Positions 9,473 through 44,463 of a stretch of 52,280 nt of DNA are shown here, one piece after another. Under the pieces are notes generated by a model. It was not told the origin of the DNA. It searched no databases and saw only the letters and a program-made list of their open reading frames with translations. Source of the stretch: Candidatus Dormiibacterota bacterium (lineage in GTDB: Bacteria > Chloroflexota > Dormibacteria > Aeolococcales > Bog-877); the NCBI GenBank assembly GCA_027306595.1, contig DAHUZI010000103.1, forward strand, positions 1-52,280, in the 5' to 3' direction. The translations under genes were made by a program, and so were the position numbers. Position 1 is the stretch's first letter. Each line of letters opens with the position of its first letter.

Positions 9473-9505
9473 CGGAGGGGGGCCACCCGTGACCGTGGCC
9501 GACTG

Positions 9506-10393: not shown

Positions 10394-10412
10394 AGCGGGC
10401 GGGGGAGGGCCG

Positions 10413-16974: not shown

Positions 16975-18306
16975 TCAGCCGCCCAGCCGGTCGACGCGCA
17001 GGCCGAAGGCTGCGGCCAAGAGCTCGAATCCCTCCCGGTGGTGGCCGGCCACCAGGATCGAATGATGGGAGGGCAGGCCGCGGACCAGCGCGTGCCCGCT
17101 CGGCACCCGGATGACCGCCCCGGTGCGACAGTCTGACGCCGGGTACTCGGCGTATCCGGTCAGCTCGCCCTCGACCACGACCAGGGACTCGAGGGTCGGG
17201 CCGAGCTTGGCGAGGGTGACGGCGCCCTCGGGGAGGCGGGCATCGATCACCGCCGATCGCTCGTCCACGATCGCCAGGACCTTGGCGCGGAGCCGCCACG
17301 GGCCTGCCATCGGCTGCGGCAGCACCCCGAGATAGCCGCAGTGGGCCGCGAGGACGCAGTCCTCCGGCCGCTCGACGTCGGGAAAGGCCGGGATGCGCTC
17401 ATGGCGGAGCGCGGCCTGCCCGAGCAGGAATGGGTACAGGTTGGTCATGACCACGGGGGCGCCCAGCGAGCGGTGGACGAGGTACTCGGTCAGCATCGAG
17501 AGGGTGTCCGCCTCGCAGCCCCAGATGAGCTGCCGCTCCTGGTAGAGGAGGTTCCAGGCCAGGCACGGGGTGGTGTCGCAGGCGCTCGACTCGTTGAGGC
17601 AGTTGGCCCCGGCCGCGACCACGGGGCCCTCGGCCGCGACCGCCTCGCGCAGGGCGAGATGGAGCTTGACCGCGCTGCGGACGGCCGCCGGGTCGGCGTC
17701 GCCGACCGGGACCCGGCTCCGCCACGGCTCCCAGGCCGCATCGGCCGCGGGATCCGCGATCGCCTTGGCGGCGGCGCCGAGGGCGCCGAGGCTGCGCGTC
17801 ACCACCGGGCAGCCGAAGCGCCGCTCGATCCGCTCGCGCGCCTGGGGCTCCCACCAGTAGAAGCGGCGAAAGATGTCGGGCTGGACGCCGGCCGCCCCCG
17901 GCTGGTCCTGGAACACCAGGAGCCGGCTGCGGGCGAGCTCGGTTCGGGCGGCCAGCGCCCGGCAGGCGGTCCGGGCCCCCTCCAGCGTGTAGGGCACGAG
18001 GGTGGCCACCCCCTCGCTGCGCAGGTAGGAGGTGAGCTCCCAGTCCCACATCGACATCGTGCCGAACTCGGAGGTGACCACCAGGATCGGGCGCGACAGC
18101 GCTCGGAGCTCCGGCACGCGGCCATACGCCTCGCCGACCAGCTGGGGCAGGAGGACGGCGTCGGCCGCCGGCAGCGGGTCCCCGAGGGGGAGCGGGTCGG
18201 CCAGCTCGGCCACATCGCCCAGGAGCTGGCGGAGGCGCTCGGTCTGGGCGCAGAACGCCGGATCGTCGATCGGACCGATGGCGACGGGGAGCAGCCGGGC
18301 TCGCAC
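16975..18306 (-). CDS. L-fucose/arabinose isomerase-like protein
   Basis: 443 aa; fucose isomerase-like architecture; GANCLNESSACDTTPCLAWNLLYQERQLIWGCEADTLSMLTEYLV. Confidence 0.8.
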   Translation of the reverse strand: MRARLLPVAIGPIDDPAFCAQTERLRQLLGDVAELADPLPLGDPLPAADAVLLPQLVGEAYGRVPELRALSRPILVVTSEFGTMSMWDWELTSYLRSEGVATLVPYTLEGARTACRALAARTELARSRLLVFQDQPGAAGVQPDIFRRFYWWEPQARERIERRFGCPVVTRSLGALGAAAKAIADPAADAAWEPWRSRVPVGDADPAAVRSAVKLHLALREAVAAEGPVVAAGANCLNESSACDTTPCLAWNLLYQERQLIWGCEADTLSMLTEYLVHRSLGAPVVMTNLYPFLLGQAALRHERIPAFPDVERPEDCVLAAHCGYLGVLPQPMAGPWRLRAKVLAIVDERSAVIDARLPEGAVTLAKLGPTLESLVVVEGELTGYAEYPASDCRTGAVIRVPSGHALVRGLPSHHSILVAGHHREGFELLAAAFGLRVDRLGG

Positions 18307-18307
18307 C

Positions 18308-19162
18308 TCAGCGCACCGCCACCGCGCGCCGGGGCCCGACCAGTCGCTCCAGATAGGCCCGGCTCCGCTCCGCCTCGTCGATGGTGCCGCACTCGACGCT
18401 GAGGGTGATCTCGCGATCGAGGGGGTCGAGCAGCCTCAGGATCCGCTCGAAGTCGACCACGCCGTCCCCGCAGGCGCAGCCCACCGGCGTGCCCGTGACC
18501 CGACCGCGCTCGCGGTCGCTGTGGGCGACGGAGATGTCCTTGGCGTGGACGTGGTAGACGCGGTCGACCACCTGCTCCAGTCCCAGGTACGGGTCCTCGA
18601 CCCCGGCCAGGTGGGCGTTGCCGGTGTCCCAGTTGACCTGGACCCAGGGGGAGGGGACCAGCTCGACGATCCGCAGCAGCCCGGCCGCGGTCCTCGTGAA
18701 GACGCCGTGGGGCTCGATGCAGAGCCAGACGCGGTGGCGCTCCGCCACCTGGACGGCCCGGGTGAGGGTGTAGCGCATCACCTCGTGTGCTTGCGCGTCA
18801 TCCATCCAGGCCGGCTTGACCATCTCGTCGGTGTTCACGAACCTCGCCCCCACCTGGTCGGCGAGCACCACCGCCCGGGTCAGCCGGGGAATCGCCGCCT
18901 CCGGCTTCATGAGGGGGCTGTGGCCGCTGAGGCTCGAGACCCCCACCTGGTGTCGCTGGCAGATCTCCCGCATCAGCAAGGGATCCTCCTCCATGGAGAA
19001 GGAATGGAAGTAGTGGACCTCGCTCAGCAGCTCCCAGCCGGTGTGCACCATCGGCTCCACCCAGCGGTAGCCGAGCTCGGCGGCGATCGCCACCCCCTCC
19101 TCGAAGCCCTTGTCGGCGCTGCGGACGAACTCCATGTTGACCGCAATCCGGTACCGCGCCAC
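18308..19162 (-). CDS. Sugar phosphate isomerase/epimerase family (TIM barrel), paralogue A
   Basis: FVNTDEM..., LCIEPHG, VNWDTGNAHLAG, HVHAKDISVAH, metal-site-like motifs. Confidence 0.88.
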   Translation of the reverse strand: MARYRIAVNMEFVRSADKGFEEGVAIAAELGYRWVEPMVHTGWELLSEVHYFHSFSMEEDPLLMREICQRHQVGVSSLSGHSPLMKPEAAIPRLTRAVVLADQVGARFVNTDEMVKPAWMDDAQAHEVMRYTLTRAVQVAERHRVWLCIEPHGVFTRTAAGLLRIVELVPSPWVQVNWDTGNAHLAGVEDPYLGLEQVVDRVYHVHAKDISVAHSDRERGRVTGTPVGCACGDGVVDFERILRLLDPLDREITLSVECGTIDEAERSRAYLERLVGPRRAVAVR

Positions 19163-19186
19163 GACGCCACCTCCCGCGAGACGGAA

Positions 19187-19213
19187 GCGGGGCTCCCGCG
19201 TGGGGAGCCCCGC
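19187..19213 (-). promoter_or_regulatory. Strong RNA stem-loop between the SBP gene and downstream genes
   Basis: GCGGGGCTCCC-GCGTG-GGGAGCCCCGC, 11-bp perfect stem starting about 22 nt after the SBP stop codon (minus-strand sense). Confidence 0.65.
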
Positions 19214-19234
19214 CCCCTTCGTCCTATCCTTCGC

Positions 19235-20305
19235 TCACTCGGGCGGGTTCGCCACCGGCCTGAGGAGGGGCATCTTCATGTACTTGGCGACCAGGGAGGG
19301 ATTCTTGAAGAAGTCCCAGCCGACCGCCTGGCCCATGGTCGCCTTGGTCACGAAATTGGTGTGCGAGTAGTAGAGCTTGCCGCCGGAGATCGTGTGGTTG
19401 AGGTAGGCGTTGATGAGCCGCACCGCCATCAGGCCCTCCAGCGCGGGTGAGCAGGTGTTGCTCGCCTTGAGCCAGCCGGCCTTGATGCCGGCGAGGCCGT
19501 AGGGCGCCCCGTTCTGGGAGACCATCAGCACCTGGCTGGCCTTGTGAGCGGCCACCAGGGCGGTGTGGGCCCCGACCGCCATGTCCTCGTTCTCGACGAA
19601 CACGCCAGCCAGATCCGGATACTTGCCGACGATGTCCTGCATCGCGGTGTAGCCGTCCGGCCGCAGCCAGTGGCCGGTCTCAGTCGCGACGTACTGGATC
19701 TTGCCGTTGGCGCAGGTCATGGTCGGGTTGCCCTCGGCGAGATCGCCCTTGCAGCCCAGGCCCTGGAGGAAGCCCTGCCGGTATCCTTCGGCGTCACCGC
19801 GTCCGAGCTGCCCGGTGATGATCGCGATCTTCCCCTTGACGTGGGTGCGCATGTAGACGCCGACCGGGTAGCTGTAGGCGGTGAGGTTGACCTGCTCGAA
19901 GCCGATCACGTTGCTCTTGTTGAGGTACTTGTGGGAGTACCCATACATCAGGAACACCGGCACGTGGACCCGCTGGGCGGCGGCGATGCTGGCGTCCTCG
20001 GTGGAGAGCCCGACCGAGTAGCCGGTGATCGCCTTGACCCCGGCGGCCAGGGCGTTGCGGACGTTGGCGAGCTCGACGGAGGGACTGATGTTGGGGTTGG
20101 GATACACCTTGACGGTGTAGCCGAGGGAGCGAGCCGCAGCGTCAGCACCCTGGAGGCCATCCTGGTAGTACAGGTCTGGCCCAGAGAGCAGGAACGCGAT
20201 CGTCCCCTTGCTCTTGGCGAGCGCGGGTGCGTTGGTCGCCCCCAGGGCCGCCGTCAGCGCGAGCGCCGTGACGGCCGCCAGGGTCGCGCGACCGAATCTG
20301 AACAT
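19235..20305 (-). CDS. Sugar ABC transporter substrate-binding protein (ribose-type, Peripla_BP_4)
   Basis: Signal peptide MFRFGRATLAAVTALALTAALGATNAPALA; IAFLLSGPDLYYQDGLQGADAAARSLGYTVKVY; FVENEDMAVGAHTAL. Confidence 0.92.
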   Translation of the reverse strand: MFRFGRATLAAVTALALTAALGATNAPALAKSKGTIAFLLSGPDLYYQDGLQGADAAARSLGYTVKVYPNPNISPSVELANVRNALAAGVKAITGYSVGLSTEDASIAAAQRVHVPVFLMYGYSHKYLNKSNVIGFEQVNLTAYSYPVGVYMRTHVKGKIAIITGQLGRGDAEGYRQGFLQGLGCKGDLAEGNPTMTCANGKIQYVATETGHWLRPDGYTAMQDIVGKYPDLAGVFVENEDMAVGAHTALVAAHKASQVLMVSQNGAPYGLAGIKAGWLKASNTCSPALEGLMAVRLINAYLNHTISGGKLYYSHTNFVTKATMGQAVGWDFFKNPSLVAKYMKMPLLRPVANPPE

Positions 20306-20387
20306 TACCCTATCCTCCTATCCTGGACATGGACCGACGTCGTCCGACCGCCCTCCCTGCCGCACACCACCCTGTCACCACCTCCTT

Positions 20388-21422
20388 CTACTTCTGCGCC
20401 CGCGTGACCATGACGGCGATGACGATGATCAGCCCGAGGGCCATCTGCTGATAGTTGCTGGAAAGCCCGGCAAACACGATCGCGTTCTGGACGATGCCCC
20501 AGAGCGCGACTCCCTGGAGGGACCGGAGGGCGCCGCCGCGGCCGCCGAAGAGCGCGGTCCCACCGATCACGGCGCAGGCGATCGATTCCAGCTCGAAGTT
20601 CTGCGCCAGGTTGAACGACGCCTCGTTGATCTCGCCGGAGAGGACCATCCCGGTGATCCCGACCAGCAACCCCATGATGGTGTAGAGGTAGATCTTCGTA
20701 CGCTTGACCGGGATCCCCGAGAGGTAGGCGGCCTCCTCGTTGCCCCCGATCGCATAGGCGCGGCGGCCCAGCGGGCTCCATCGGAGGAAGGCGAAGGCGA
20801 ACAGCACCACCAGCACCAGGGGAATGGTGAGCGACGGGAGCCCGAAGAACGGAGGGCCCGAGGGCAGGTAGCCGCCGAATGCGGTGTACAGGCCCTTCAT
20901 GTCGTTGACCGGCGCGCCACCGGTGAGCTGGGTGTCGAGCCCGAAGAGGAAGATCGACATCCCCAAGGTGATGATGAAGGGGTGGGCGCGTCCCTGGGCC
21001 GCGAGCAGGCCGTTGACGAATCCGACCCCGGTGGAGGCCGCGATGCCGGCGGCGATGGCCAGCCAGAGCGGCTGGTTCTGCTGGAGGAGCAGCCCGGTGA
21101 CGATGCCGGCGAAGGCGATGTTGTAGCCGACCGAGAGGTCGAGCCCGGCCGAGATCAGAAGGATCGCCTGCCCCATCGTGACGATGCCGAGCGGGGCCAC
21201 CTGGCTCAGGATGTTCTCGAAGTTGAACACGGTGAGGTAGTGGGAGGACTGGAAGGTGGTGACCGCGATCAGCACCACCATCACGGCCATGGGCCACACG
21301 GAATAGACGTCGACCCGCCGCAACCGGGACCGGATCCGGCCATCGGGCAGGGCCGAGTGGTCGGCTGGCGGCGTCTCCAGCCCGGCGGCCACAGTCGGGT
21401 GACCCGGATGGTCTGTGCTCAT
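20388..21422 (-). CDS. Sugar ABC transporter permease (RbsC family)
   Basis: GQAILLISAGLDLSVGYNIAFAGIV, AYAIGGNEEAAYLSGIPVKRTKI, CAVIGGTALFGGRG. Confidence 0.95.
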   Translation of the reverse strand: MSTDHPGHPTVAAGLETPPADHSALPDGRIRSRLRRVDVYSVWPMAVMVVLIAVTTFQSSHYLTVFNFENILSQVAPLGIVTMGQAILLISAGLDLSVGYNIAFAGIVTGLLLQQNQPLWLAIAAGIAASTGVGFVNGLLAAQGRAHPFIITLGMSIFLFGLDTQLTGGAPVNDMKGLYTAFGGYLPSGPPFFGLPSLTIPLVLVVLFAFAFLRWSPLGRRAYAIGGNEEAAYLSGIPVKRTKIYLYTIMGLLVGITGMVLSGEINEASFNLAQNFELESIACAVIGGTALFGGRGGALRSLQGVALWGIVQNAIVFAGLSSNYQQMALGLIIVIAVMVTRAQK

Positions 21423-22954
21423 GATGCTTGCGCCCCCAGCGATCCAACGGTCATGGCGATGATCTCGGCGTAGCTCGTCTCCCGGGCGCTGACGGTCTGC
21501 ACCACCTCGCCGCTGCGCAGGCAGACGATCCGGTCCACGAACCTCAGGAGGTCGCGCACGTCGGTCGAGATCACCAAGACCGCGCGGCCGGCCGCCGCCA
21601 GCTCGCGGACGATCCGATGGATCTCCACTTTGGCGCTGACGTCGACCCCCTGGGTGGGTTCCTCCAGCACCAGCACGGCGGCGTCGGCGGCGAGGCCCTT
21701 GGCCAGCAGCACCTTCTGGCGGTTGCCACCGCTCAGGGTGCGGACCGGCGTCGCCAGCGACGGGGCGGCGATGTTGAGATCGCGCCTGAACTGCTGGGCG
21801 ACGGCGCGCTCCCGCGGCAGGGAGAGGACGCCGTGCCGGGTGATCGCGCGCAGGGCGACCAGGGTGATGTTGGCGGCGACCGACAGGGGGAGCACCAGGC
21901 CCTGGCGGTCGGGGTCCTCCGGGACCAGGAAGATGTGCCGACCGATCGACTGCCGGGGTCCGCGGGGGCGGTAGGGGTGGCCGGCGAGCCGGATCCGCCC
22001 CGCGGTCGGCCGGTCGAGCCCATAGATCACCCGGGCGACCTCGTGACCGCCGGCGCCGATCACCCCGGTCACCCCCACCACCTCGCCGGTTCGCACCTCG
22101 AGGCTGACATCGCGGAGGACGTCGGTCCGCAGGTGCTCCACCGCCAAGAGGGCGGGCCCGTTCGGCTCGGCCTTCACCGCCGGCGCGGTCGGCGGGGCCG
22201 CCGCCGCGGCCGGGGCCCGACCCGCCATCAGGGTCACCACCTCGGTCTGGGTGACCTCGCGGGTGGGGCAGGTGACCATCAGCCGCCCGTCCCTGAGCAC
22301 CGTGAGCCGGTCGGCGAGCCGGAAGATCTCCTCCAGCGGGTGGGTCACATAGAGGATCGCCACCCCCTCGTTGACCAGCTGGCCGACAAGGGTGAAGAGC
22401 CGCTCGCTTCGCTCCGCGTCCAACGCTGCTGTGGGCTCGTCGAGGATGAGGAGCTTGGCGCGGCGGTACACGGCCTTGGCGATCGCCACCTGCTGGCGCT
22501 CGGGAGTGGTGAGGTGGGCCACCGGCACGGCCGGGTCGATGTCGAGCCGGAACTGAGCCAGCAGGTCCCGGGTCCGGCGGTTGGCCTCGTGCCGGTCGAT
22601 CACGACGCCGGCGCGGCTCGGGAGCTGGCCGAGGAGGACGTTCTCGGCCACCGACAGCCAGGGCAGGAGCTGCGCCCGCTGGTGGAGGACGGCGATGCCA
22701 AGGTCGTAGGCGTGCTTGGGGGTGTAGGTCGTGATCGGCCGGCCATCGAAGAGGATCCGGCCGCGGTCCGGCGGGTGGACGCCGGCGATGCACTTGACCA
22801 GCGTCGACTTGCCGGCCCCGTTCTGGCCGACCAGGCCATGGACCTCGCCCGGCAGCACCGTGAGGCTGACGGCGCTGAGGGCTTCCACCCCGGGGAAGTG
22901 CTTGCTGAGGGCCTCCACGGCCAGAAGCGGCGGGCGGGCGGCGTCGCTGGTCAT
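21419..22954 (-). CDS. Sugar ABC transporter ATP-binding protein (RbsA family, two NBDs)
   Basis: NBD1 GQNGAGKSTLVKCIAG and LLILDEPTAALD; NBD2 LSGGNRQKVLLAKGL. The NBD1 signature (LTTPERQQV) and NBD2 Walker A (GVIGAGGHEV) are degenerate. Confidence 0.94.
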   Translation of the reverse strand: MTSDAARPPLLAVEALSKHFPGVEALSAVSLTVLPGEVHGLVGQNGAGKSTLVKCIAGVHPPDRGRILFDGRPITTYTPKHAYDLGIAVLHQRAQLLPWLSVAENVLLGQLPSRAGVVIDRHEANRRTRDLLAQFRLDIDPAVPVAHLTTPERQQVAIAKAVYRRAKLLILDEPTAALDAERSERLFTLVGQLVNEGVAILYVTHPLEEIFRLADRLTVLRDGRLMVTCPTREVTQTEVVTLMAGRAPAAAAAPPTAPAVKAEPNGPALLAVEHLRTDVLRDVSLEVRTGEVVGVTGVIGAGGHEVARVIYGLDRPTAGRIRLAGHPYRPRGPRQSIGRHIFLVPEDPDRQGLVLPLSVAANITLVALRAITRHGVLSLPRERAVAQQFRRDLNIAAPSLATPVRTLSGGNRQKVLLAKGLAADAAVLVLEEPTQGVDVSAKVEIHRIVRELAAAGRAVLVISTDVRDLLRFVDRIVCLRSGEVVQTVSARETSYAEIIAMTVGSLGAQAS

Positions 22955-23817
22955 CGGGTCGGACCACTGAGGTCGGGGAGCAGTCCGCGCAGGAACCGCC
23001 CGCCCTCCCTGGCGATGGCGTCGGGCGAGGCCCCAAGCGGGCGCCAGACGGAGGCGGCGCGCGCGATCTGCTCGATGCCGGTCGTGAACGACTCGATGAC
23101 GACCGCGCCCTGGTACCGGACCGCCGCGAGGCCGGCCGCGAAGGTGGTCCAGTCGAAGTGGCCGCTCCCCGGCGCGCCGCGGTCGTTCTCGCAGGCATGC
23201 ACGTGCCGGAGCCGGCCGCCCGCCGCCGCCACCGCCTGGGCGATCGACCGCTCCTCGATGTTGAGGTGGAAGGTGTCGAGGAGCAGGCCGCAGTTGGGCA
23301 TGTCGATCCGGTCGCACAGCTCGAGCCCCTGCTTGACCGTGTTGACGAGATCGGTCTCGAATCGATTGAGCGGCTCGATCGCCAGCGACACCCCGCGCTC
23401 CCCGGCGTACTCGGCCGCGGCCCGCAGGCTGGTCGCGGCGCGCTGCCGCTGCCGCTCCCGCTGGGCGTCACCCAGCGGGCGGGCCTGGCCCGTCGGGGCA
23501 TACATGGGGCCGGCGACGTGCGGGGAGCCCACCCGGCCGGCGATGTCCACGCAGGTGCGCAGGTAGGCGAGCCCCTGCCGGCGGCGCTCCGGATCCTCGT
23601 GGGACAGGTCACGGTCGGGTCCGAAGGCGCCGCAGACCGAGACCGCCAGCCCGGCCGCATCGGCCGCGGCCCGGACCCGGTCCGCGCTCACCCGCTCCGG
23701 CTCCTCGATGCAGATCTCGAGGAGGTCGAACCCCAGCGTGCGCGCGCGCTCGAACAGCCCGAGGGCGTCGTCGCCGAAGGGCGAGACCCAAAGGTAGGTG
23801 CTGACGCCGAGCTTCAT
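22951..23817 (-). CDS. Sugar phosphate isomerase/epimerase family (TIM barrel), paralogue B
   Basis: MKLGVSTYLWVSPF...; LAIEPLNRFETDLVNTVKQ; LLLDTFHLNIEE; HVHACENDRGAPGSGHFDW, epimerase-like. Confidence 0.92.
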   Translation of the reverse strand: MKLGVSTYLWVSPFGDDALGLFERARTLGFDLLEICIEEPERVSADRVRAAADAAGLAVSVCGAFGPDRDLSHEDPERRRQGLAYLRTCVDIAGRVGSPHVAGPMYAPTGQARPLGDAQRERQRQRAATSLRAAAEYAGERGVSLAIEPLNRFETDLVNTVKQGLELCDRIDMPNCGLLLDTFHLNIEERSIAQAVAAAGGRLRHVHACENDRGAPGSGHFDWTTFAAGLAAVRYQGAVVIESFTTGIEQIARAASVWRPLGASPDAIAREGGRFLRGLLPDLSGPTR

Positions 23818-24977
23818 CGCCGGCCGCCCCCGTCGGGCTCCGCCGCGGTGTGCTCGACCGCCTCCCAGGTCCCGCTCGCGGACGCGCGCTCGACCGCCTC
23901 GGCCACCTCGGCGGCCCGCAGCCCGTCGAGGAAGGTGGCGCCGTGCGGCCCCAGCGGCCGGGTGCCCGCCACCGCGTCCAGGAGGTGGGCCAGCATGTTC
24001 ACGTGGCCGTGCTCCCATCCGAGAACGTGGCCGGCCGGCCACCACGGCGCCGCCAGCTCGTGCTCCGGCTCGGTGGCGAGGACGTCGGTGAAGCCGCCAA
24101 GGCGACCGGGACCGCGGCGGTGCACCCGGAGCCGGTTCGGCGACTCCAGGCTCCAGGCCAGACTGCCTCGGGCCCCGCTGATCTCGAAGGCGAGGTGGTT
24201 CTTGCGGCCGGGCGCGATCAACGACGCCTCGATGGTCGCGACCAGGCCGCCCGCGAGACGGGCCAGGATCGCGACCGCGTCGTCAGTCTCGGCGGGGCCG
24301 GCGCGGAACGTGCGGGTTGGGGTGATCCTGGTGATCACCGCCGCGACCGCCTCGATCTCGCCGCACAGGTAGCGGGCCTGGTCGATCGCGTGGCAGCCGA
24401 TGATGTCGACCACCCCCGTCGGCGAGGGGAGCTGGGCGGCAGGGTCGGTCCGCCACTCCTGGGCGTACCGGATCTGGACCTGGCGCAGCTCCCCCAGCTC
24501 CCCCTCGTGGATCAGCGCCCAGGCCAGCCGGACGGCTGGGAAGAAGCGGTAGTTGAAGCCCGTGAGGTGGATGACGCCGGCGGCCGCGGCGGCCTCGTAG
24601 AGGCGGCGGGCCTCGGCCGCCGACGAGGCCAGGGGCTTCTCGCACACCACGTGCTTGCCGGCGGCGATCGCCGCCAGGGTCGGCTCCACGTGGGCGGCGT
24701 CGGCGGCCACATTGTCGAACACCGCGACCCTGGGATCGGCGACGAGGTCGTGCCAGTCCGTCGTCCAGGATTCGTAGCCGTAGCGGGTGGCCGCCTCCCG
24801 CACTGCGGCCTCGGTGCGCCCGCCGATCGCCACCAGCTGGGGCCGGGCCGCCGACGGCCAGTGGATGTGGGGGAGGGTGAGCAGGGCGTGGGAGTGGGCC
24901 TTGGCCATGAACCCGTAGCCGAGCAGGCCGAATCCGACCGACCGGCGCTCGTCACGGGGCGCGGCGGACAGGCTCAT
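23814..24977 (-). CDS. Gfo/Idh/MocA family oxidoreductase, paralogue 1
   Basis: VGFGLLGYGFMAKAHSHALL Rossmann start; HVVCEKPLASSAAEARRL; DIIGCHAIDQARYLCGEI. Confidence 0.94.
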   Translation of the reverse strand: MSLSAAPRDERRSVGFGLLGYGFMAKAHSHALLTLPHIHWPSAARPQLVAIGGRTEAAVREAATRYGYESWTTDWHDLVADPRVAVFDNVAADAAHVEPTLAAIAAGKHVVCEKPLASSAAEARRLYEAAAAAGVIHLTGFNYRFFPAVRLAWALIHEGELGELRQVQIRYAQEWRTDPAAQLPSPTGVVDIIGCHAIDQARYLCGEIEAVAAVITRITPTRTFRAGPAETDDAVAILARLAGGLVATIEASLIAPGRKNHLAFEISGARGSLAWSLESPNRLRVHRRGPGRLGGFTDVLATEPEHELAAPWWPAGHVLGWEHGHVNMLAHLLDAVAGTRPLGPHGATFLDGLRAAEVAEAVERASASGTWEAVEHTAAEPDGGGRR

Positions 24978-25873: not shown

Positions 25874-26877
25874 GGTGCCACGGCTCCTGTTGGTTCCTCA
25901 CGGACACGCACGGCGATTGCGGAGAGCTCGTCGACGACCGGTGGGGTCATCGCGAGGTCGAACACCTCCTCGATCACGCACGTCCATCCGTGGATGAAGT
26001 AGCGCCAGCCGTCCTCGACGTGCAGGTGCCGGGGCCCGGCCTGGGCCTGCGCCTGGCGCAGGAAGTCGAGCGCGCCGCGGTAGTTCAGCTCCCACACCCG
26101 GGCCTCCGACGGGAACACCCCCGCCTGGGTGATGGGGCTTCCCGGGCTGTCCTTGCCCATCCCCGTCCCGTTGACCACGAGCGACCCCGCAGGCAGGGCC
26201 CGAAGGAGCCGGTCGTTGAGCTGGGGGTCGTCGTTCACGACGTAGCGGACGTCGACGTGCCCCTCCACGCGCTCGTGGACCGCGCGCATGGCGGAGAGCC
26301 GGGGCGAGCTCCGGTTCACGACCGTGAGCCGCTGCGGCCGGTCGGCGCCGGCGCCGGCCCTGAGGAGGTTGAGGCTGATGGCGAGGTTGGAGCCGCCCGC
26401 ACCGAAGAGCAGCGCGTGGGCGCCGGTCCGCTCCCAGTAGCCGGGGGCGAGGAAGTCTCGAAGGGCGCGCCCCGACGAGATCGGGTCCTTGGCGTGGGCG
26501 CGGAGCCGACCGCCCCGCTTGGACAGGCATGAGACCTCGCCCAGCAGCTCGGCATAGGGGTCGACCTCGTCGAAGAGGTCGCGGCTGGCGGCGAACAGGT
26601 CGAGCTTGTGGGTCGTGACCAGACCGCCGAGCTCGAGCGGTTGGGACTTGATGGCCTCCACGACCGCGCGATACCGCTTGGGGGCGGCGTGGAGGGCGAG
26701 GTCATACCCGTGCATCGCCACGTCGCCGAGACCGAGGTGGCTCGCCCAGGCGGGGAAGACGCGCATGATCGCGGAGTGGCCGGTGGTGACGCCCACGAAT
26801 GCAAAGCGCCGGGTTCCGTCCGTCGAGGCCGCGCCCGGGACGTGCAGCGACCGGTCGGCCGCGCCCGCCAGGCTCAT
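25870..26877 (-). CDS. Shikimate dehydrogenase-like (AroE family) oxidoreductase
   Basis: GLVTTHKLDLF (cf. VTxPHK), LLFGAGGSNLAISLNLLRAG nucleotide site, SLVVNGTGMGKD. Confidence 0.8.
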   Translation of the reverse strand: MSLAGAADRSLHVPGAASTDGTRRFAFVGVTTGHSAIMRVFPAWASHLGLGDVAMHGYDLALHAAPKRYRAVVEAIKSQPLELGGLVTTHKLDLFAASRDLFDEVDPYAELLGEVSCLSKRGGRLRAHAKDPISSGRALRDFLAPGYWERTGAHALLFGAGGSNLAISLNLLRAGAGADRPQRLTVVNRSSPRLSAMRAVHERVEGHVDVRYVVNDDPQLNDRLLRALPAGSLVVNGTGMGKDSPGSPITQAGVFPSEARVWELNYRGALDFLRQAQAQAGPRHLHVEDGWRYFIHGWTCVIEEVFDLAMTPPVVDELSAIAVRVREEPTGAVAP

Positions 26878-27539
26878 AACGGCCGCGGCCCGAGCAGTGT
26901 CAGCAGCCGCCTGGCGTTGGCGCTGATCGCGTCCCAGTTGCGCGCCCGGCGGAGCGCGGGCGGCAGGAGATCGCCCCCCAGGCCCACCGCCACTGCGCCG
27001 GCGTCCAGCCACTCCCGTGCCCGCTCGGCTGCGATCCCCCCGGTCGGGACCATCAGCAGGTCCGGGAATGGGGCCAGCAGCGCCCGCACGTGCTGCGGGC
27101 CCACCGTCGAGGCCGGGAAGAGCTTCACGACCGCAGCGCCGGCCGCGACCGCCGCGGCGCACTCGGACGGCGTGAGCACACCTGGCACGACCAGGCGGCC
27201 GGTTGCGAGCATCGACCGCAGGAGCGCCAGGTCGAGGTGGGGGGAGACCAAGAGGTCGGCCCCGGCCTGGCTCGCGGCCTCGGCCTGGGCCGCCGTCGTG
27301 ATCGTCCCCGCGCCGAGGAGGAGGTCGGGGCCGAGCCGCCGCCGGGTCTCGACCAGCGCCTCGGCCACCCCCGGGGTGGTGAAGGTCAGCTCGATCGCTC
27401 CGAGACCGCCGGCGTGGAGGGCCTCGGCGATCGCGATCGCCTCGGCCGTGTCCTGGGCGCGCACCACGGCGATCGCCCGGGCCGCCCGCAGCCGCTCCAG
27501 CGCGCGACGCGCCGTCGAGGGCCCGGTGGCGGCGCTCAT
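26874..27539 (-). CDS. KDPG/KHG-type 2-keto-3-deoxy aldolase
   Basis: ELTFTTPGVAEAL, LLGAGTITTAAQAEAASQAGADLLVSPHLD, VPGVLTPSECAAAVAAGAAVVKLFPAS. Confidence 0.92.
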   Translation of the reverse strand: MSAATGPSTARRALERLRAARAIAVVRAQDTAEAIAIAEALHAGGLGAIELTFTTPGVAEALVETRRRLGPDLLLGAGTITTAAQAEAASQAGADLLVSPHLDLALLRSMLATGRLVVPGVLTPSECAAAVAAGAAVVKLFPASTVGPQHVRALLAPFPDLLMVPTGGIAAERAREWLDAGAVAVGLGGDLLPPALRRARNWDAISANARRLLTLLGPRPL

Positions 27540-28525
27540 GCCGGGAACCTGGGCGCGCGGCCGGCGAGGACCGCGGTCAGCTCCTCGAGCGCGATCCGCC
27601 CCATCGCCGCCGTGGCCGCGTCGGTGTGCGGGGCCATGTGCGGGGTCACCAGCACGTCAGCGCGCCCGAGCAGGGGATGGTGCGGACCGGGGGGCTCCTG
27701 GCTGAGGACGTCGAGCGCGGCGCCGCCGATCCGACCCTCGTCCAGCGCTCGCACGACCGCCGCCTCGTCGATCAGCTCGCCCCGCGCGGTGTTGATCAGG
27801 AGGAGGCCTGGACGCACCCGGTCGAGGAACGGCGCGCCGACCAGGCCCCGCGTCCGTTCGGTGAGCGGCGCGTGGAGGGAGATGATGTCCGATCGGGAGG
27901 CGAGCTCGTCGAGGGTGACGAGCTCCACCGTCTCGGCGGGGGCGACGAACGGGTCGTGGGCGAGCACCCGCAGGTCGAGCCCGGCCGCCTTGGCCGCCAC
28001 CAGCTTCCCGATCCGCCCGAGCCCGACGAGCCCGAGGGTCCGACCGGCGAGCTCGATCCCCGCGAGCGGGGGCCACTCGCCCGCCTCCACCTGCTCGTGG
28101 GCGCTCGTGAGGTGGCGGGCCAGGGCGAAGAGGAGGGCGAGGGTGAGCTCGGCCACCGCGTTGGCGTTGGCGCCCGGGGTGGTCGTGACCACCACGCCGT
28201 GTCGGGCGGCGGCCGCGAGGTCGACCCGGTCGAGGCCCGTGCCGTATCGGGCGACCACCCGCAGGCGAGGCGCCTGCTCGAAGACCCGGGCGCTCACCTC
28301 GTCGAGGCCCGCGATCAACCCGTCGGCGTCGGCGAGGAGATCGGCCAGCGCATCGGCGCCGTGCGGCCCCGGACGGTAGCGCACCTCCGCGACGGTCGAC
28401 GCAAGCTGGCGCCGAAGTCCGGGCGCCTGGAGGCCGAAGGAGCGGGGCGTCACCACCACCACGCAGGCGTGGAGCGGCCGCTGGGCGGGCGCCGGGGCCG
28501 GTCGATCCGCGGCAACCGGCGTCAC
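27536..28525 (-). CDS. D-2-hydroxyacid dehydrogenase (phosphoglycerate dehydrogenase-like)
   Basis: GTG start at 28525; GRTLGLVGLGRIGKLVAAKAAGL, LLINTARGELIDEAAVVRAL, VLVTPHMAPHT. Confidence 0.9.
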   Translation of the reverse strand: MTPVAADRPAPAPAQRPLHACVVVVTPRSFGLQAPGLRRQLASTVAEVRYRPGPHGADALADLLADADGLIAGLDEVSARVFEQAPRLRVVARYGTGLDRVDLAAAARHGVVVTTTPGANANAVAELTLALLFALARHLTSAHEQVEAGEWPPLAGIELAGRTLGLVGLGRIGKLVAAKAAGLDLRVLAHDPFVAPAETVELVTLDELASRSDIISLHAPLTERTRGLVGAPFLDRVRPGLLLINTARGELIDEAAVVRALDEGRIGGAALDVLSQEPPGPHHPLLGRADVLVTPHMAPHTDAATAAMGRIALEELTAVLAGRAPRFPA

Positions 28526-29100
28526 CGCCCGGCCTCCTTGGGCCGGACCACCGGCCCGCCGCTGGTGCTGATGACCCGGTGGGCGAACCCGGTGTGCTCG
28601 ATGGTCGCGTAGTCGTGACCGGCCTGACCGGGGTAGACGGCGAGGAACGAGAGCGGCCCCTCGCCGGTGTTCACGGTGCGGTGTGCCCACCCCGGGGGGA
28701 CGTAGGCGAGCCCGCCGCGCCCGAGGGCCAGCTCCTCGGTGTCCCCATCCTCGTTCTGGAGCAGCACCAGGCCCCGGCCGCGGAGCCCGAGGTACACCTC
28801 GCCAGCCGTCCGGTCGGCGTGGTAGTGACCCTTGGTCATGAAGTACTCGGCGCCGACGGTCCCGGCCTGGATCACCGTCGTGCAGCAGATGAGCTGGCCT
28901 GTGACCTCGGGGACGTCGCGCTGGAGCACCTCATAGACGACGGGGTCTCCATCCGCCACCAGCCGCTCCAGCGCGGGGGCATCGGCGACCTGACCGCGCA
29001 GCGCGGACGCCCGGCGTTCGAGCCGGCTGGTGTGCGGCTCCATCCAGCCGCTCTCGAGGTCGACCGTGAGGATGAACGGGAGCACCGGGATCGCGATCAT
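28522..29100 (-). CDS. Cupin-type (archaeal-type) glucose-6-phosphate isomerase
   Basis: TVGAEYFMTKGHYHADRTAGEVYLGLRGRGLVLLQNEDG...AYVPPGWAHRTVNTGEGPLSFLAVYPGQAGHDYATI: cPGI cupin metal motifs. Confidence 0.88.
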   Translation of the reverse strand: MIAIPVLPFILTVDLESGWMEPHTSRLERRASALRGQVADAPALERLVADGDPVVYEVLQRDVPEVTGQLICCTTVIQAGTVGAEYFMTKGHYHADRTAGEVYLGLRGRGLVLLQNEDGDTEELALGRGGLAYVPPGWAHRTVNTGEGPLSFLAVYPGQAGHDYATIEHTGFAHRVISTSGGPVVRPKEAGR

Positions 29101-30137
29101 GGTTCGATCACCACCTTCAACGCACGGCCGGATCCGGCCAGGGCGAACGCGTCCAGCGCGCGGGCGAGGGGGAACCGCGCGTCGATGAGGGCAGCCGGCT
29201 GGACCCGGCCCGCGTGGATGAGCTCCAGCGCCTCGCGGCAGTCACGGTTGGTGTTGGCCGAGGTGCCGGTCACCACCAGCTCGCGGTAGTGGATGCGGTT
29301 GAGGTCGAGGGCCACGGTGGACGCTGCGCGGGCCAGCCCGGCGAAGAGGTTGATCCGGGCCGCCGGCGCAGCCAGCTCCACCGCCGCTGCCATCGCCGAC
29401 GCCGCCGGGGCGGCGACGATCACCACATCGGCACCCCGGGTGGCCCCGACCGCGTCCAGCGCGTGGCGGAGGGCCTCGGGGTCGGCCCCGTGCACCGAGG
29501 CGGCGCCGGCTGTCACCGCGCGGGGATGCCGGACCGGGTTGGGCTCGCCGACGACGACCGCGCCCGCGCCGGCCAAACGGGCGAGGGCGAGGTGGAGCAG
29601 GCCGATGGCACCGGCGCCGAAGATCAGCACCGCCTCCCCGGACTGGATCCGGCAGGCGCGCGACCCCCGCACCACCGACGCCAGCGGTTCTGCCAGGGCC
29701 ATCGTCGCCGCCTCCGGGTCGCCGGTGAGCGGGATCACGTTGCCCTGCTCAACCAGCGGCTGGGGCAGCCGGACCGCCTCGGCGAACCCTCCGTCCTCGG
29801 TGATCCCCAGGGCGCGCGGCGCCTGGCAGAGATTGACGTCGCCGCGACGGCATTCGCGGCAGACGCCGCAGCCGAAGTTGGGAGCCACGAAGACGCGCGT
29901 CCCCACCTGGGGACCGGCCCCGGACCCCCTCGCCACAACGGTGCCGGCCAGCTCGTGGCCGGGCACGCGGCCCTCGGCGGCGCCGTAGGCATGGTGCGAC
30001 CCCTCGGCGATGCGCAGGTCCGTCCCGCAGATCGAGCAGGCGTCGACCCGGACCACCAGCTCCCCGGCTCCCGGCTCGGGCAACGGCCGCTCCTCCAGCT
30101 CGAGGCGATGGGGACCGCGGTAGGCGAGCGCGAGCAT
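29097..30137 (-). CDS. Zinc-dependent alcohol/polyol dehydrogenase (MDR family)
   Basis: CSICGTDLRIAEGSHHAYG, GHELAGTVVARG, CGVCRECRRGDVNLCQ structural zinc site, LIFGAGAIGLLHLALARLAGA. Confidence 0.93.
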   Translation of the reverse strand: MLALAYRGPHRLELEERPLPEPGAGELVVRVDACSICGTDLRIAEGSHHAYGAAEGRVPGHELAGTVVARGSGAGPQVGTRVFVAPNFGCGVCRECRRGDVNLCQAPRALGITEDGGFAEAVRLPQPLVEQGNVIPLTGDPEAATMALAEPLASVVRGSRACRIQSGEAVLIFGAGAIGLLHLALARLAGAGAVVVGEPNPVRHPRAVTAGAASVHGADPEALRHALDAVGATRGADVVIVAAPAASAMAAAVELAAPAARINLFAGLARAASTVALDLNRIHYRELVVTGTSANTNRDCREALELIHAGRVQPAALIDARFPLARALDAFALAGSGRALKVVIEP

Positions 30138-31165
30138 CAGGGGGTCTCCTCATCGGCGACCGCGACCGGTCGCGTCTCCAGCCAGGACCGGTTGGCGGCG
30201 AGCACCGCGGCGACGGCCGCGCGGCCGTCGGCCCCGGTGGCTGCCGGCGCCGACCCGGTGGCGACAGCGTCGGCGAAGCTCCGCAGCTCTTCCCGGTAAC
30301 CCCCGGCGAACCGCTCCGGCCAGCTGGCGAAGGTCGGGACCTCGCCGCCGCCGCGATGGCGGATCTCCAGGAGCGCGCTCGAGCGGTGTCCACCGATGAC
30401 GAGCAGGCCATCGGTGCCGATCACCTCGGCCCGCGCCTCATAGGTGACGTCGACCGGACAGGTGCCGTCGATGCTGCCGAGGCACCCGCCGGCGAGACGG
30501 AGCGTCACGACCGCGTTGTCGTAGAAGTGGTCGGCGGCGACGCCCCGGGCCTGACCCTTGAAGTTGGCCGTCTCCGCGTAGACCCGAACGATTTCGGATC
30601 CGGAGAGCCAGCGGACCGTGTCGAAGTCGTGGCTGTTGACCTCGGCGAGCATGCCGTTCGAGCGCCGCAGGTCGTGCGCCCAGGGGGGCGGCAATCCGGG
30701 CCCACGCGTGACCGACTTCACCAGCATCGGCGTCCCGATGTCGCCGGCCGCGATTCGCCGCTGGGCCTCGACGAACTCGGGCTGGTATCGGCGCACGAAT
30801 CCGATCTGGAGGACAGTTGCGGCGGCCCGGGTAGCGGCGAGCATGCGATCGCACGCCGCCAGCGTCAGCGCCATCGGCTTCTCGCAGAGCGCGTGGCGGC
30901 CGGCGGCCGCCGCCTCCTCCACGAGCATCGGGTGGGTCTCCGTCGGCGTGGTGACGATCACGGCGTCGAAGGCCTCGTGCGCCAGCGCCGCCTCCAGGGA
31001 GGGATGCGCGGGCACCCCGAATCGAGCGCCCAGTTCGGCCGCCCGGGTGGGGTCGGAGTCGACGACACAGGCGAGGTCGGCGGCGGCCACCCCGCGGCTG
31101 GCGTTGAGCGCATGAACCGCGCCGGCCCGTCCGGCGCCCACCACCGCGAGGCGAAGGCGGCTCAT
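30137..31165 (-). CDS. Gfo/Idh/MocA family oxidoreductase (inositol 2-dehydrogenase-like), paralogue 2
   Basis: RLAVVGAGRAGAVHALNASRGV; HALCEKPMALTLAACDRML; EVNSHDFDTVRWLSGSE. Confidence 0.93.
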   Translation of the reverse strand: MSRLRLAVVGAGRAGAVHALNASRGVAAADLACVVDSDPTRAAELGARFGVPAHPSLEAALAHEAFDAVIVTTPTETHPMLVEEAAAAGRHALCEKPMALTLAACDRMLAATRAAATVLQIGFVRRYQPEFVEAQRRIAAGDIGTPMLVKSVTRGPGLPPPWAHDLRRSNGMLAEVNSHDFDTVRWLSGSEIVRVYAETANFKGQARGVAADHFYDNAVVTLRLAGGCLGSIDGTCPVDVTYEARAEVIGTDGLLVIGGHRSSALLEIRHRGGGEVPTFASWPERFAGGYREELRSFADAVATGSAPAATGADGRAAVAAVLAANRSWLETRPVAVADEETP

Positions 31166-32682
31166 GCCGTGACCGCCGAGGTGGCGGGCGCCGGCGACGC
31201 AAGGACCTCGAGTGCCGCTCGATAGTCGGCCAGGCGGTCGGCGTAGCGGGTGAGGAGCTGCGGGTCGGGGTCGACCCGCTCAGCGGTGGCGGCCGCGCCG
31301 AGCGCAGCGCCCTCGAGGTCGTGCACCAGGCCGACCGCGGCGGCGGCCACCAGGGCCGCCCCCCAGGTGGTGAAGGCCCTCGGTTCAAGGCGCACGTAGG
31401 GGAGCTTGAGCACGGTGGCCTTGATGCGGTTCCAGAGCCGGTTGCGGCTGCCGCCCCCGATGACCCGGACCTCGCGCAGCTCGAGCTCGGGATGGAGGAC
31501 CCGGGCGCGCGCGAGGAAGCCCGCATACTCGAAGGCCACGCTCTCCAGGACCGAGCGGACGAGGTCGCCGCGGCCGGTCGCCAGGTCAGGGGCGACCCAG
31601 CCGCCGCGGGCGTGCGGGGCGGCGGGCAGCAGGCGCCCGGCGAGGTGGGGCACGAAGAGGAGGCGGGCGGGCCTGGCCCCCTCGGCCTCGGCCAGGAGTG
31701 CGGCCAGCGCGAGCGCATCCCCCGCCGGCCGGCCGGCGAGGACGTGGGGCAGCCAGCGGACCAGGTCGCCGCCGGCGAGGTACGCGAGCGCCACCCACTG
31801 TCCCGGGGACGCGGCGCGCATCGCGACCAGGGTGCGGGCCCCCAGGTCGGGGCGGAACCGGGCTGTGGAGATGCCGAGGACAGAGGCGGTTCCCGCGGTA
31901 TCGAGGATCTGGCCCGCCCGCACCACCCCGGCCCCGAGCGTGCCCGCCGCGGTGTCGCCGAGGCCGGCCGCGATCGGGGTGTTCGGGGCCAGCCCGCAGG
32001 CGGCCGCCGCCGCCGTTGTGAGTCCGCCCACCACGGTGGTGGGGGCGACGATCCGGGGCAGGCGCCCGGGGTCGATGTCGAGGGCGCTGACGAGCGCGGG
32101 CGACCACTGGCCGCTGGCGGCGTCGGCGGCCCCTGTGAAGTGGAGATGGGTCCAGTCGATGTAGCTCTCGGCTGCCGAAAGACCGCTGAGCCGGCCTGCG
32201 ACAAAGGCGCTGGGCACGACGAAGCGTCGCACGTGCGCATAGACGGCCGGACGCTGGTGCTGCCACCAGCGAATCTTCGGTGCGTGGGCGATCATCGGCG
32301 GGCAGCCCGTCAGCCGCAGCACGTCCGCTCCCAGCCGGCTCGCGATCCAGTCCACCTCTCCGCGGGAGCGGGTGTCGAGCCACGAGTCGTACGGCGTGAC
32401 GGCCAGGCCGCCGTCCCCGATCCCGAGGATGCCGGCCATCTGCGCGGCAACGGCGATCCCGGCCACGGCACCCGGCCCGCAGCGGGCGGTGCGCACGCAG
32501 GCGGCGATCGCCTGGGTGGTCGCGGCGGTGAAGCCCTCGGGGTCCTGCTCGACGATGTCGCCACCGCGTCGATGGAGGGCCAGCGGCACGGTGGCGTCGC
32601 CGAGACAGGCCCCGTCGGTGGCGTAGAGGCCGGCCCGCACACTCTGGGTCCCGACGTCGACGCCAACCACCAGCTCGCTCAC
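31162..32682 (-). CDS. FGGY-family carbohydrate kinase (xylulokinase-like)
   Basis: VVGVDVGTQSVRAGLYATDG; TPIAAGLGDTAAGTLGAGV; EVRVIGGGSRNRLWNRIKATVLKLPYVRLEP. Confidence 0.93.
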   Translation of the reverse strand: MSELVVGVDVGTQSVRAGLYATDGACLGDATVPLALHRRGGDIVEQDPEGFTAATTQAIAACVRTARCGPGAVAGIAVAAQMAGILGIGDGGLAVTPYDSWLDTRSRGEVDWIASRLGADVLRLTGCPPMIAHAPKIRWWQHQRPAVYAHVRRFVVPSAFVAGRLSGLSAAESYIDWTHLHFTGAADAASGQWSPALVSALDIDPGRLPRIVAPTTVVGGLTTAAAAACGLAPNTPIAAGLGDTAAGTLGAGVVRAGQILDTAGTASVLGISTARFRPDLGARTLVAMRAASPGQWVALAYLAGGDLVRWLPHVLAGRPAGDALALAALLAEAEGARPARLLFVPHLAGRLLPAAPHARGGWVAPDLATGRGDLVRSVLESVAFEYAGFLARARVLHPELELREVRVIGGGSRNRLWNRIKATVLKLPYVRLEPRAFTTWGAALVAAAAVGLVHDLEGAALGAAATAERVDPDPQLLTRYADRLADYRAALEVLASPAPATSAVTA

Positions 32683-33512
32683 GACCGGCCGTCAGCCTCG
32701 AGGCTCAGCCCTTCGAATCGACTGATCGCCGGGGTGGCGGCCCGCAGCTGGACCTCGAAGGTGCTTCGGTCACCGCGGTGGCGGGCGATGAAGTACTCGA
32801 ACGGCCGGCCGCCAACCGTGAAGCTGACGGATCGGAGCACCAGCAGGGCGGCGCCCCGTTGGATTCGCAGGAGGTGCGCCTCCCGGGTGTCGGCCAGGGT
32901 GGCCTCGACCCGTCGGACGCTGGAGACCAACGGGAGTGCATACCGTTCGCGCAGGATCTGGTACAGCGAGGCCGACCCGTTCAGGTCGTGTGCCACCAGC
33001 CCCGGGACGAGGGCGGCGGGCAGGTACGAGATCACGAGCACGATCGGCTCCCCGCCGATGGCTCGGAGCCGCTCCAGCTCGACCACTGCATCGCCGGGGT
33101 CGAGCTGGAGCCGGCGCGCCACGTCAGCGCCGGCCGGGGCCTCGCGCAGCAGCAGAACGGTGCTGTCGACCTCGCGCCCGCGCAGGCGGGCGTCGTCGGC
33201 GAGCCCGCCGAGCCCGCTCATCAATCCATCCGCGGTCTTGGGAACCGAGACGAACGTGCCTCGCCCGCGCTCGCTCGACACCAGCCCCTCGTAGCGGAGC
33301 TCGCTGATTGCCTGCCGGACAACTCCCCGACTGAGGCCGAAGCGCCCGCACAGCTCCGCCTCGGCTGGGATCCGACCGCCGGCCGCGAAGTCCCCGGAGA
33401 GGATCCGCTCCGAGAGCCACTGCTTGAGCTGGTAGTAGAGGGGGATCGGCGTAGAGCGATCAACGGCGGGCGCCGAGCGCGGCAGTGTCGAGTTGACCAC
33501 CTGTCCAGACAT
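32679..33512 (-). CDS. GntR family (UTRA-type) transcriptional regulator
   Basis: PLYYQLKQWLSERILSGDFAAGGRIPAEAELCGRFGLSRGVVRQAISELRYEGLVSSERGRGTFV, then a UTRA-like domain. Confidence 0.94.
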   Translation of the reverse strand: MSGQVVNSTLPRSAPAVDRSTPIPLYYQLKQWLSERILSGDFAAGGRIPAEAELCGRFGLSRGVVRQAISELRYEGLVSSERGRGTFVSVPKTADGLMSGLGGLADDARLRGREVDSTVLLLREAPAGADVARRLQLDPGDAVVELERLRAIGGEPIVLVISYLPAALVPGLVAHDLNGSASLYQILRERYALPLVSSVRRVEATLADTREAHLLRIQRGAALLVLRSVSFTVGGRPFEYFIARHRGDRSTFEVQLRAATPAISRFEGLSLEADGRS

Positions 33513-33640
33513 CTGGCCTTCACTCTCCGCCAGGGTTGGGGCCGGGCCATCGGGGGTTCCACGCCCCGTCACGAGGCGGGTTCCGCCCCCCGACCAGCGC
33601 GGGTTCTCTACCGCTGTGCCGGCAGGTGCGATTACGCACC
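33505..33640. promoter_or_regulatory. Candidate operators in the GntR/lactonase divergent region
   Basis: Inverted repeats CCAGA-CA-TCTGG (33505-33516, over the GntR start codon) and GGTGCG-ATTA-CGCACC (33625-33640). Confidence 0.35.
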
Positions 33641-33699
33641 GGCGGGGGCGCAATTCCCCGGGTCCGCCGGGTGGCCGCCACCCTCGACCCTGCCTGCGG

Positions 33700-34632
33700 A
33701 TGCCTTCGATCATTCGAACCGTCGGCGGGGACATCGCCCCGGAGCAGCTGGGCCCGACGGACGCCCATGAGCACCTCTTCTTCACGACGCCGATCCAGCC
33801 CGGAGACGAGTACACCGACGTCGACCGGGCGATCGAGGGGGTCCAGGAGCTGGCGCGCGCGGGCGCCCGGGCCCTTGTGGACTGGACGCCGATCGGCCTC
33901 GGCCGCGACCCCGAGGCCCTTCTCCAGGTTTCCAGGGCGACGGGTATGTCGATCGTGGCGGCGACGGGGGTGCATCGTGACGCTCACTACGACGCCAGTG
34001 ACGCCGTTCGCGGGGCCGACGCCGCCACGCTCGCCGACCGCTTCACCTCCGACCTCGTCGCTGCCCGCGTGCGCTCGGGGGTGGTCAAGATCGGCGCCAG
34101 CTACCACCGGCTCCAGGGGCTGGAGCCGGCGGTGTTCGAGGCGGCCGCCGAGGCGCACCGGCGCACCGGCGCACCGCTGTGCGTCCACACCGAGCACGGA
34201 ACGATGGGACTCGAGCTCGTGGAGCATCTTGGGCGACTGGGCGTGCCCGCCTCATGCCTCGTGCTCGCCCACCTCGACCGCAATCCCGACCCCGGCGAGC
34301 ACGCCGAGGTGGGCCAGGCCGGCGCGTATCTTCAGTACGACGGACCGGGCCGGGCCAAGTACTGGCCGGACTCGACCATCCTCGACCTGATCGCGCGGAT
34401 CGCGGACCGTGGCCTCGCCGACCACATCCTCCTCGGCGGGGACGCCGGGCGCCGCTCGATGCTCCACGCGTACGGGGGCGGCCCGGGGCTCGACTACCTG
34501 TTCCGGCGCTTCAAGCCGCGGCTCGAGCGAGAGCTGGGCGCGGAGCTGTCGCGGATGATCTTCGCGGCCAATCCCGCCCGGGCCTTCGCCTTCGAGCCCC
34601 GGCGCGATGGCTCGGCCCCGATCGATGGCTGA
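33700..34632 (+). CDS. Phosphotriesterase-like metal-dependent hydrolase (PTE/PLL family; possible sugar lactonase)
   Basis: GPTDAHEHLFF (HxH), GVVKIGASYHRL (Lys), PLCVHTEHGTMGLE, VLAHLDRNPDPGEH, ILLGGDAG. Confidence 0.88.
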   Translation: MPSIIRTVGGDIAPEQLGPTDAHEHLFFTTPIQPGDEYTDVDRAIEGVQELARAGARALVDWTPIGLGRDPEALLQVSRATGMSIVAATGVHRDAHYDASDAVRGADAATLADRFTSDLVAARVRSGVVKIGASYHRLQGLEPAVFEAAAEAHRRTGAPLCVHTEHGTMGLELVEHLGRLGVPASCLVLAHLDRNPDPGEHAEVGQAGAYLQYDGPGRAKYWPDSTILDLIARIADRGLADHILLGGDAGRRSMLHAYGGGPGLDYLFRRFKPRLERELGAELSRMIFAANPARAFAFEPRRDGSAPIDG

Positions 34633-39265: not shown

Positions 39266-39314
39266 GAGCGGTCCTCCGGCGCCCGGCGGCCGGCGGAGCC
39301 GGTCCGGCACGCCC

Positions 39315-43674: not shown

Positions 43675-43675
43675 C

Positions 43676-44443: not shown

Positions 44444-44463
44444 CGCCCCGATCCCAGGCCGGC

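Follow-up and report, generated by a model that had tools for sequence, protein, structure and literature searches.

The 52,280-nucleotide stretch of DNA analyzed here (the window; assembly GCA_027306595.1 of a Candidatus Dormiibacterota bacterium, contig DAHUZI010000103.1) carries between positions 16975 and 34632 a real and conserved, apparently undescribed carbohydrate module of a familiar kind, whose most interesting part is an uncharacterised dehydrogenase family. The locus, situated on contig C121 of a 2.6 Mb assembly that is 76% complete, comprises a minus-strand run of 16 genes (16975-33512), neighbours mostly overlapping by 4 bp, and one divergent plus-strand gene. All gene types listed in an original prediction made from the letters alone were recovered at their positions with Pfam and NCBIfam models, and with structure prediction for two of them. 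With slightly less than even confidence, we read the locus as an operon that imports and degrades a sugar alcohol or a rare, possibly cyclic or anhydro, sugar; its steps are inferred, and it is built of two modules, namely a widespread trunk and a clade-specific set of levoglucosan type. Some of what had been taken for redundancy of oxidoreductases and isomerases is better read as this division.

The trunk emerges from a genome-collection scan with the AroE-like protein (25870-26877, minus strand), which yielded 212 confirmed relatives. Eighty of these loci, spanning at least eight bacterial phyla and one archaeal assembly, were fetched, and annotated plasmid loci were added; the nearest matches belong to Acidimicrobiaceae and other metagenome-assembled genomes (MAGs) of Actinomycetota. 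Neighbours were counted in 89 loci including the window, with flanks of about 10-14 kb around the AroE-like gene (L110 and L111 were treated as duplicates of L033 and L041, not as independent evidence). The shared trunk consists of an FGGY kinase (69 loci), an archaeal-type cupin phosphosugar isomerase of the phosphoglucose isomerase (GPI) type (68), the AroE-like protein itself and a lactonase-type hydrolase (57), often joined by a D-2-hydroxyacid dehydrogenase (HADH; 46) resembling phosphoglycerate dehydrogenase (PGDH) and by an aldolase (Eda; 33) of the 2-keto-3-deoxy-6-phosphogluconate (KDPG) type. Other neighbours are metallo-beta-lactamase (MBL) fold proteins (44), short-chain dehydrogenases (SDR; 42), RpiR regulators (36), iron-dependent glycerol-dehydrogenase-type enzymes (21), a zinc-dependent alcohol/polyol dehydrogenase (ZnDH; 20), phosphotriesterase (PTE) family hydrolases (13) and a Gfo/Idh/MocA dehydrogenase (GfoA; 11). 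The same neighbours recur around this family in unrelated phyla, which is more than chance grouping. MBL and PTE are mutually exclusive (44 loci with MBL only, 13 with PTE only, none with both; Fisher p 9e-5, a value inflated by relatedness). Because they never occur in one locus, these two unrelated enzymes probably are interchangeable and serve one hydrolytic step.

In rhizobia, the operon order is cupin-Eda-AroE-HADH-MBL-RpiR, adjoined by an ATP-binding cassette (ABC) importer, FGGY, SDR, glycerol dehydrogenase and often a HAD phosphatase; the SDR and glycerol-dehydrogenase-type enzymes stand in place of GfoA and ZnDH. The combination GfoA-ZnDH-FGGY with AroE, cupin and HADH is common to Verrucomicrobia, Hydrogenedentota and Acidimicrobiia, and one archaeal MAG (labelled Lokiarchaeota in its record) contains FGGY, AroE, cupin, HADH, MBL and Eda. 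Mesorhizobium loci show cupin-AroE-FGGY, sometimes with MBL and RpiR, and divergent from the trunk lie genes near 3-hexulose-6-phosphate synthase (151 bits against a cut-off of 200) and isomerase (150 against 160). In locus L038 (7806-8956), hexulose-6-phosphate synthase/isomerase-like genes opposite the trunk hint at formaldehyde or 3-hexulose phosphate there. An independent draw of Actinomycetota genomes, sampled regardless of neighbours, places the AroE-like family in 17 of 400 genomes, and 2 of 18 genomes of the window's own family possess it; the gene is hence an accessory one. Trunk genes surround the matches of this draw in L112-L116 and L121. Two near-complete genomes (L115 and L116) contain ABC-GfoA-ZnDH-cupin-FGGY-GntR-Eda-HADH-AroE-PTE, nearly the trunk of the window, and L113 and L121 are similar. 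The cupin GPI is rare in Actinomycetota (15 of 201 genomes, 10 of them with E <= 1.4e-15), and in 4 of these 10 an AroE-like gene lies within 4.5 kb of it.

The AroE-like protein, the hub of the trunk, has no Pfam match, and AroE models score far under cut-off (43.3 of 295 and 31.9 of 200 bits); yet its predicted structure (predicted local distance difference test, pLDDT, 91) matches shikimate and quinate dehydrogenases (Foldseek; E 1.4e-17 to 2CY0) as well as 5-ketofructose reductase, so that the label it had been given holds. The family is tight, with 54 invariant positions. According to the model, the protein has a shikimate dehydrogenase fold with the catalytic Lys/Asp kept (K91 and D131, both invariant). 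When it is mapped by sequence and eye onto a reference AroE, I37 and S116 stand where AroE has its second shikimate-binding serine and its asparagine, and H296 takes the place of the glutamine; further invariant marks of the family are N265-Y266-R267-G268 and K242-D243. By analogy with AroE, the NRSxxR motif that follows the second Rossmann strand points to NADP as the cofactor. The 5-ketofructose reductase KFR (PMC7954740; PDB 7COK) likewise uses the shikimate dehydrogenase fold on a sugar and not on shikimate, but its sequence similarity is weak (some 18% identity where the folds align), it forms a separate family and it has no known kinase-isomerase-lactonase module. In the tree of AroE-like proteins the Acidimicrobiia-type group is well supported, while sequences from archaea, spirochaetes, Verrucomicrobia and Proteobacteria are intermingled and the deeper branches have weak support; this topology fits horizontal spread without proving it. 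More tentatively than the reading of the operon as a whole, we propose that the AroE-like protein represents a novel dehydrogenase of phospho-sugars and forms the core of an undescribed trunk, which has spread among phyla with front ends that can be swapped to suit different polyols and rare sugars.

The route proposed for the window takes its step order from known family chemistry. GfoA (30137-31165), a second Gfo/Idh/MocA dehydrogenase (GfoB, 23814-24977), ZnDH (29097-30137), the TIM-barrel protein TIM2 (22951-23817) and an isomerase of arabinose/fucose-isomerase fold (16975-18306; these and the following genes on the minus strand unless stated) would convert the imported substrate into a ketose. 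The FGGY kinase (31162-32682; Pfam FGGY_N/C), xylulokinase-like at a score below cut-off (TIGR01312, 226 bits against 380), would turn the ketose into a ketose phosphate, which the cupin isomerase (28522-29100; Pfam GPI PF06560, 96.7 bits) would convert into an aldose phosphate; the cupin residues H92, H94, E101 and H140 are kept across 67 homologues. The AroE-like enzyme, probably with NADP, would then oxidise the aldose phosphate to a phospho-aldonolactone, and the PTE-family hydrolase (33700-34632, plus strand; Pfam PTE, 156 bits), a candidate phospho-sugar lactonase, would open the lactone to an aldonate phosphate, a task that may fall to the MBL-fold protein in other loci. The PTE metal ligands H23, H25, K130, H163, H191 and D248 are kept in 13 homologues; the nearest PDB relative is 3PNZ (169 bits), and the best NCBIfam model is the phospho-furanose lactonase NF045706 (143.5 bits against a cut-off of 630). 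HADH (27536-28525; Pfam 2-Hacid_dh/_C), with catalytic R248, E277 and H296 kept across 45 homologues, would form a 2-keto acid phosphate, to be cleaved by the aldolase (26874-27539), which passes TIGR01182 (184.6 against 156) and has its Schiff-base lysine K139 conserved.

As to the substrate, all PDB relatives of the sugar-binding protein (SBP) of the window (19235-20305; Pfam Peripla_BP_4) are distant, the best scoring 52.7 bits. An SBP adjoining the trunk in R. leguminosarum is a close relative of PDB 4RY9 (388 bits), which we take to be a D-talitol complex. The polyol dehydrogenases encoded in proteobacterial loci likewise point to sugar alcohols. A modified, branched or cyclic carbohydrate, as originally predicted, is not established, and the sole substrate clue in relatives favours sugar alcohols.

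One alternative is a cyclitol route in the style of the Thermotoga IolG-IolM-IolN-IolO pathway, in which GfoA and ZnDH would carry out two oxidations of an inositol, PTE would break its ring, TIM2 would act as epimerase on the keto acid formed and the AroE-like enzyme would take a ring intermediate. This pathway supplies the best or near-best models for three of the proteins: GfoA, which retains the EKP and NSHDxD motifs in the alignment, scores highest with inositol 2-dehydrogenase (TIGR04380, 251 bits, the next model reaching 114), ZnDH (Pfam ADH_N, ADH_zinc_N) matches IolM with 163.8 bits and TIM2 matches IolO with 146.5 bits; moreover, AroE relatives work on ring alcohols. However, all three scores are far under their cut-offs (355, 450 and 300), ZnDH ties with a threonine dehydrogenase model whose cut-off it also misses by far, TIM2 is closer to D-psicose 3-epimerase, and the rhizobial versions do without GfoA and ZnDH. 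An FGGY kinase, a phosphosugar isomerase and an AroE-like enzyme are not known to be part of the Thermotoga-type route. We consider the cyclitol route unlikely.

The second module of the favoured two-module operon comprises GfoB and the TIM-barrel isomerase/epimerase-like proteins TIM3 (24974-25873; Pfam AP_endonuc_2, 104 bits), TIM2 and TIM1 (18308-19162; AP_endonuc_2, 103 bits), together with the protein of arabinose/fucose-isomerase fold. GfoB scores highest with the levoglucosan dehydrogenase model (NF052479; 237.1 bits, cut-off 650), and among PDB entries its second match is the series of solved structures of this enzyme (6A3F, 213 bits). TIM2 resembles a ketose 3-epimerase: it scores 177.9 bits with D-psicose 3-epimerase (NF051856, cut-off 300) and matches D-tagatose 3-epimerase structures. 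The isomerase-fold protein, from a family without a name, had been called FucI-like, which is true at the level of the fold: although it has no Pfam, NCBIfam or PDB sequence match, its AlphaFold model (pLDDT 78.5) fits L-arabinose isomerase best (AraA, E 7.5e-17) and L-fucose isomerase next (FucI, 6.3e-11). A plasmid search with this protein gave no match. It is mainly close relatives of Acidimicrobiia type (L003, L006, L008-L010) that share GfoB, TIM3, TIM1 and the AraA/FucI-fold protein, the last being present in L004, L025 and L029 as well. In the lgd cluster, one TIM protein performs an elimination and another a hydration (PMC7676230), and by analogy GfoB, TIM3, TIM2 and TIM1 may work by 3-oxidation, elimination and hydration, as in levoglucosan catabolism; the set could supply the trunk with a keto sugar.

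One could go further and regard the locus as an Lgd-like operon for levoglucosan, another anhydrosugar or a glycoside that has been joined to common sugar genes, with the AroE-like enzyme as the last keto-sugar reductase. The LgdA-LgdB1-LgdB2-LgdC pathway of Bacillus smithii and the window share a levoglucosan-dehydrogenase-like Gfo/Idh/MocA protein, dissimilar TIM proteins, a further Gfo/Idh/MocA protein and a sugar ABC importer, but the pathway ends at glucose, and the described cluster lacks FGGY kinase, cupin isomerase, AroE-like enzyme, HADH, aldolase and lactonase (PMC7676230). GfoB stays far from the levoglucosan dehydrogenase cut-off, and GfoB and the TIM proteins are absent from most trunk loci, so they do not explain the AroE module. 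Such a fusion appears quite improbable.

Several observations weigh against the proposed phosphorylated route itself. According to family models, the operon contains no dehydratase, and 6-phosphogluconate dehydratase is absent from the locus; a normal 2-keto-3-deoxy acid would thus require that a dehydratase is supplied from outside, that the substrate is already 3-deoxy or that the aldolase accepts a 3-hydroxyl. Eda and HADH are missing from many loci, including most of those from Mesorhizobium, and the Paraburkholderia loci (SDR-MBL-FGGY) have neither. A related group without cupin (L033, L034, L041, L053 and L055; MAGs labelled Chloroflexi that the genome search assigns to Actinomycetota) combines the AroE-like gene with DeoC, Gfo/Idh/MocA and an ABC importer, L033 also with a ROK kinase and a SIS isomerase, and there the AroE-like enzyme may act on another substrate class. 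Finally, the loci are related, and both the counts and the Fisher p value overstate their independence. An ending in aldol cleavage had been predicted; an Eda-type aldolase is indeed present, but this end of the route is weaker than claimed, as Eda is optional (it is not in the operon of the close Acidimicrobiia relatives L004, L006, L009 and L010, and in Mesorhizobium hexulose-phosphate synthase/isomerase-like genes occupy its place) and a dehydratase is lacking. The dehydratase, the main gap in the route, might come in trans (three IlvD/Edd-family matches lie elsewhere in the genome) or be unneeded, or the aldolase may have a different substrate. Kinase, isomerase and AroE-like enzyme are retained where HADH and Eda come and go, and the beginning of the trunk hence has stronger support than its end.

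A 3-deoxy input would account for the missing dehydratase. A 3-deoxy ketose or polyol, e.g. 3-deoxyfructose from sugar degradation, would pass through kinase, isomerase, AroE-like enzyme, lactonase and HADH to KDPG, a balanced route that uses every trunk enzyme once. It agrees with the trunk variants devoid of a dehydratase, apart from one neighbouring Edd/IlvD gene, and with the GGTW KDPG-type motif kept in rhizobial aldolases. However, Acidimicrobiia aldolases carry GGE or GGD at this place, and the aldolase is optional. We regard this as the least probable of the routes considered, and a very unlikely one.

As explanations of the whole locus, a Thermotoga-type inositol pathway and a levoglucosan operon were rejected on the IolG, IolM, IolO and NF052479 scores and, for the latter, on the distribution of GfoB and the TIM proteins; a classical inositol pathway (IolBCDE) because the TIM proteins score no higher than 33 bits with IolE (cut-off 290) and the operon has no IolB, IolC or IolD; an Entner-Doudoroff operon because neither Zwf nor Edd is encoded there, despite the Eda-type aldolase; and a shikimate/quinate operon because of the AroE scores and the lack of other aromatic-pathway genes. 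The locus appears, as predicted, as a coherent carbohydrate-catabolic unit unlike the canonical ribose, xylose, fucose, inositol and Entner-Doudoroff operons, NCBIfam cut-offs being missed except for the generic Eda subfamily model. Entner-Doudoroff and 2-ketogluconate-type routes share the KDPG-type aldolase and the 2-hydroxyacid dehydrogenase with the window, whose kinase, by contrast, is of the FGGY type and whose AroE-like protein has no counterpart there. Keto-aldonate oxidation and KDPG-type cleavage also occur in the L-glucose/L-galactose pathway of Luteolibacter, which uses the dehydratase LguB and the 2-keto-3-deoxygluconate kinase LguH; no AroE-like, cupin or FGGY step appears in the abstract describing it (PMC12632266). 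Neither synteny with a characterised pathway nor any account of this gene set was found in open-access full texts, which is weak evidence, as most subscription papers fall outside this scope.

The remaining genes complete the operon. Thirteen consecutive genes, nearly all with 4-base overlaps, run from the GntR/UTRA (HutC-type) regulator (32679-33512; Pfam GntR and UTRA) to the permease of the sugar ABC importer (20388-21422; Pfam BPD_transp_2; ribose permease model, 171 bits), which is preceded by the ATPase of RbsA/AraG type (21419-22954; Pfam ABC_tran in two stretches, i.e. two ABC domains). Downstream of the permease follow the genes for SBP, TIM1 and the AraA/FucI-fold protein, with preceding gaps of 82, 72 and 1 bases. 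Many operon genes begin later than the longest open reading frame (ORF) would start. The gene coordinates first predicted agree with ours, but the GntR gene is corrected to 32679-33512, and the divergent PTE gene more likely starts at 33700 than at 33493, because its homologues begin there. A search for inverted repeats between GntR and PTE revealed no single convincingly shared operator.

Elsewhere in the window, a transposase (DDE_3, IS630-like; 31-1062, minus strand) lies at the edge. A branched-chain-type ABC operon (8105-13007) precedes a gene for a thiamine-diphosphate enzyme of benzoylformate decarboxylase/acetolactate synthase type (13004-14661, plus strand), which is split into two frames (79 and 473 aa, 4-base overlap) by a frameshift or an assembly error. 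A 565-aa ORF (34921-36618, minus strand) joins a short-chain dehydrogenase to a C-terminal deazaflavin-dependent nitroreductase-like part; its middle looks out of frame, and it is possibly two genes. On the same strand (38276-45366), Amidohydro_2 enzymes (38276-39310 and 44464-45366) surround a gene of the AMP-binding acyl-CoA ligase type (42034-43674); together they may serve the catabolism of aromatic acids. Consecutive plus-strand genes (46818-50287) for a membrane protein resembling ferric reductases, a small protein and an ApbE flavin transferase form a candidate flavin-based extracytoplasmic redox unit.

If the proposed route is true, it would give a role to a strongly conserved dehydrogenase family of rhizobia, Paraburkholderia, actinobacteria, Verrucomicrobia and others, and would reveal a phosphorylated sugar route whose enzymes now carry the annotations shikimate dehydrogenase, glucose-6-phosphate isomerase and phosphoglycerate dehydrogenase. 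Sinorhizobium, Shinella and Paraburkholderia are culturable carriers in which this route can be tested.

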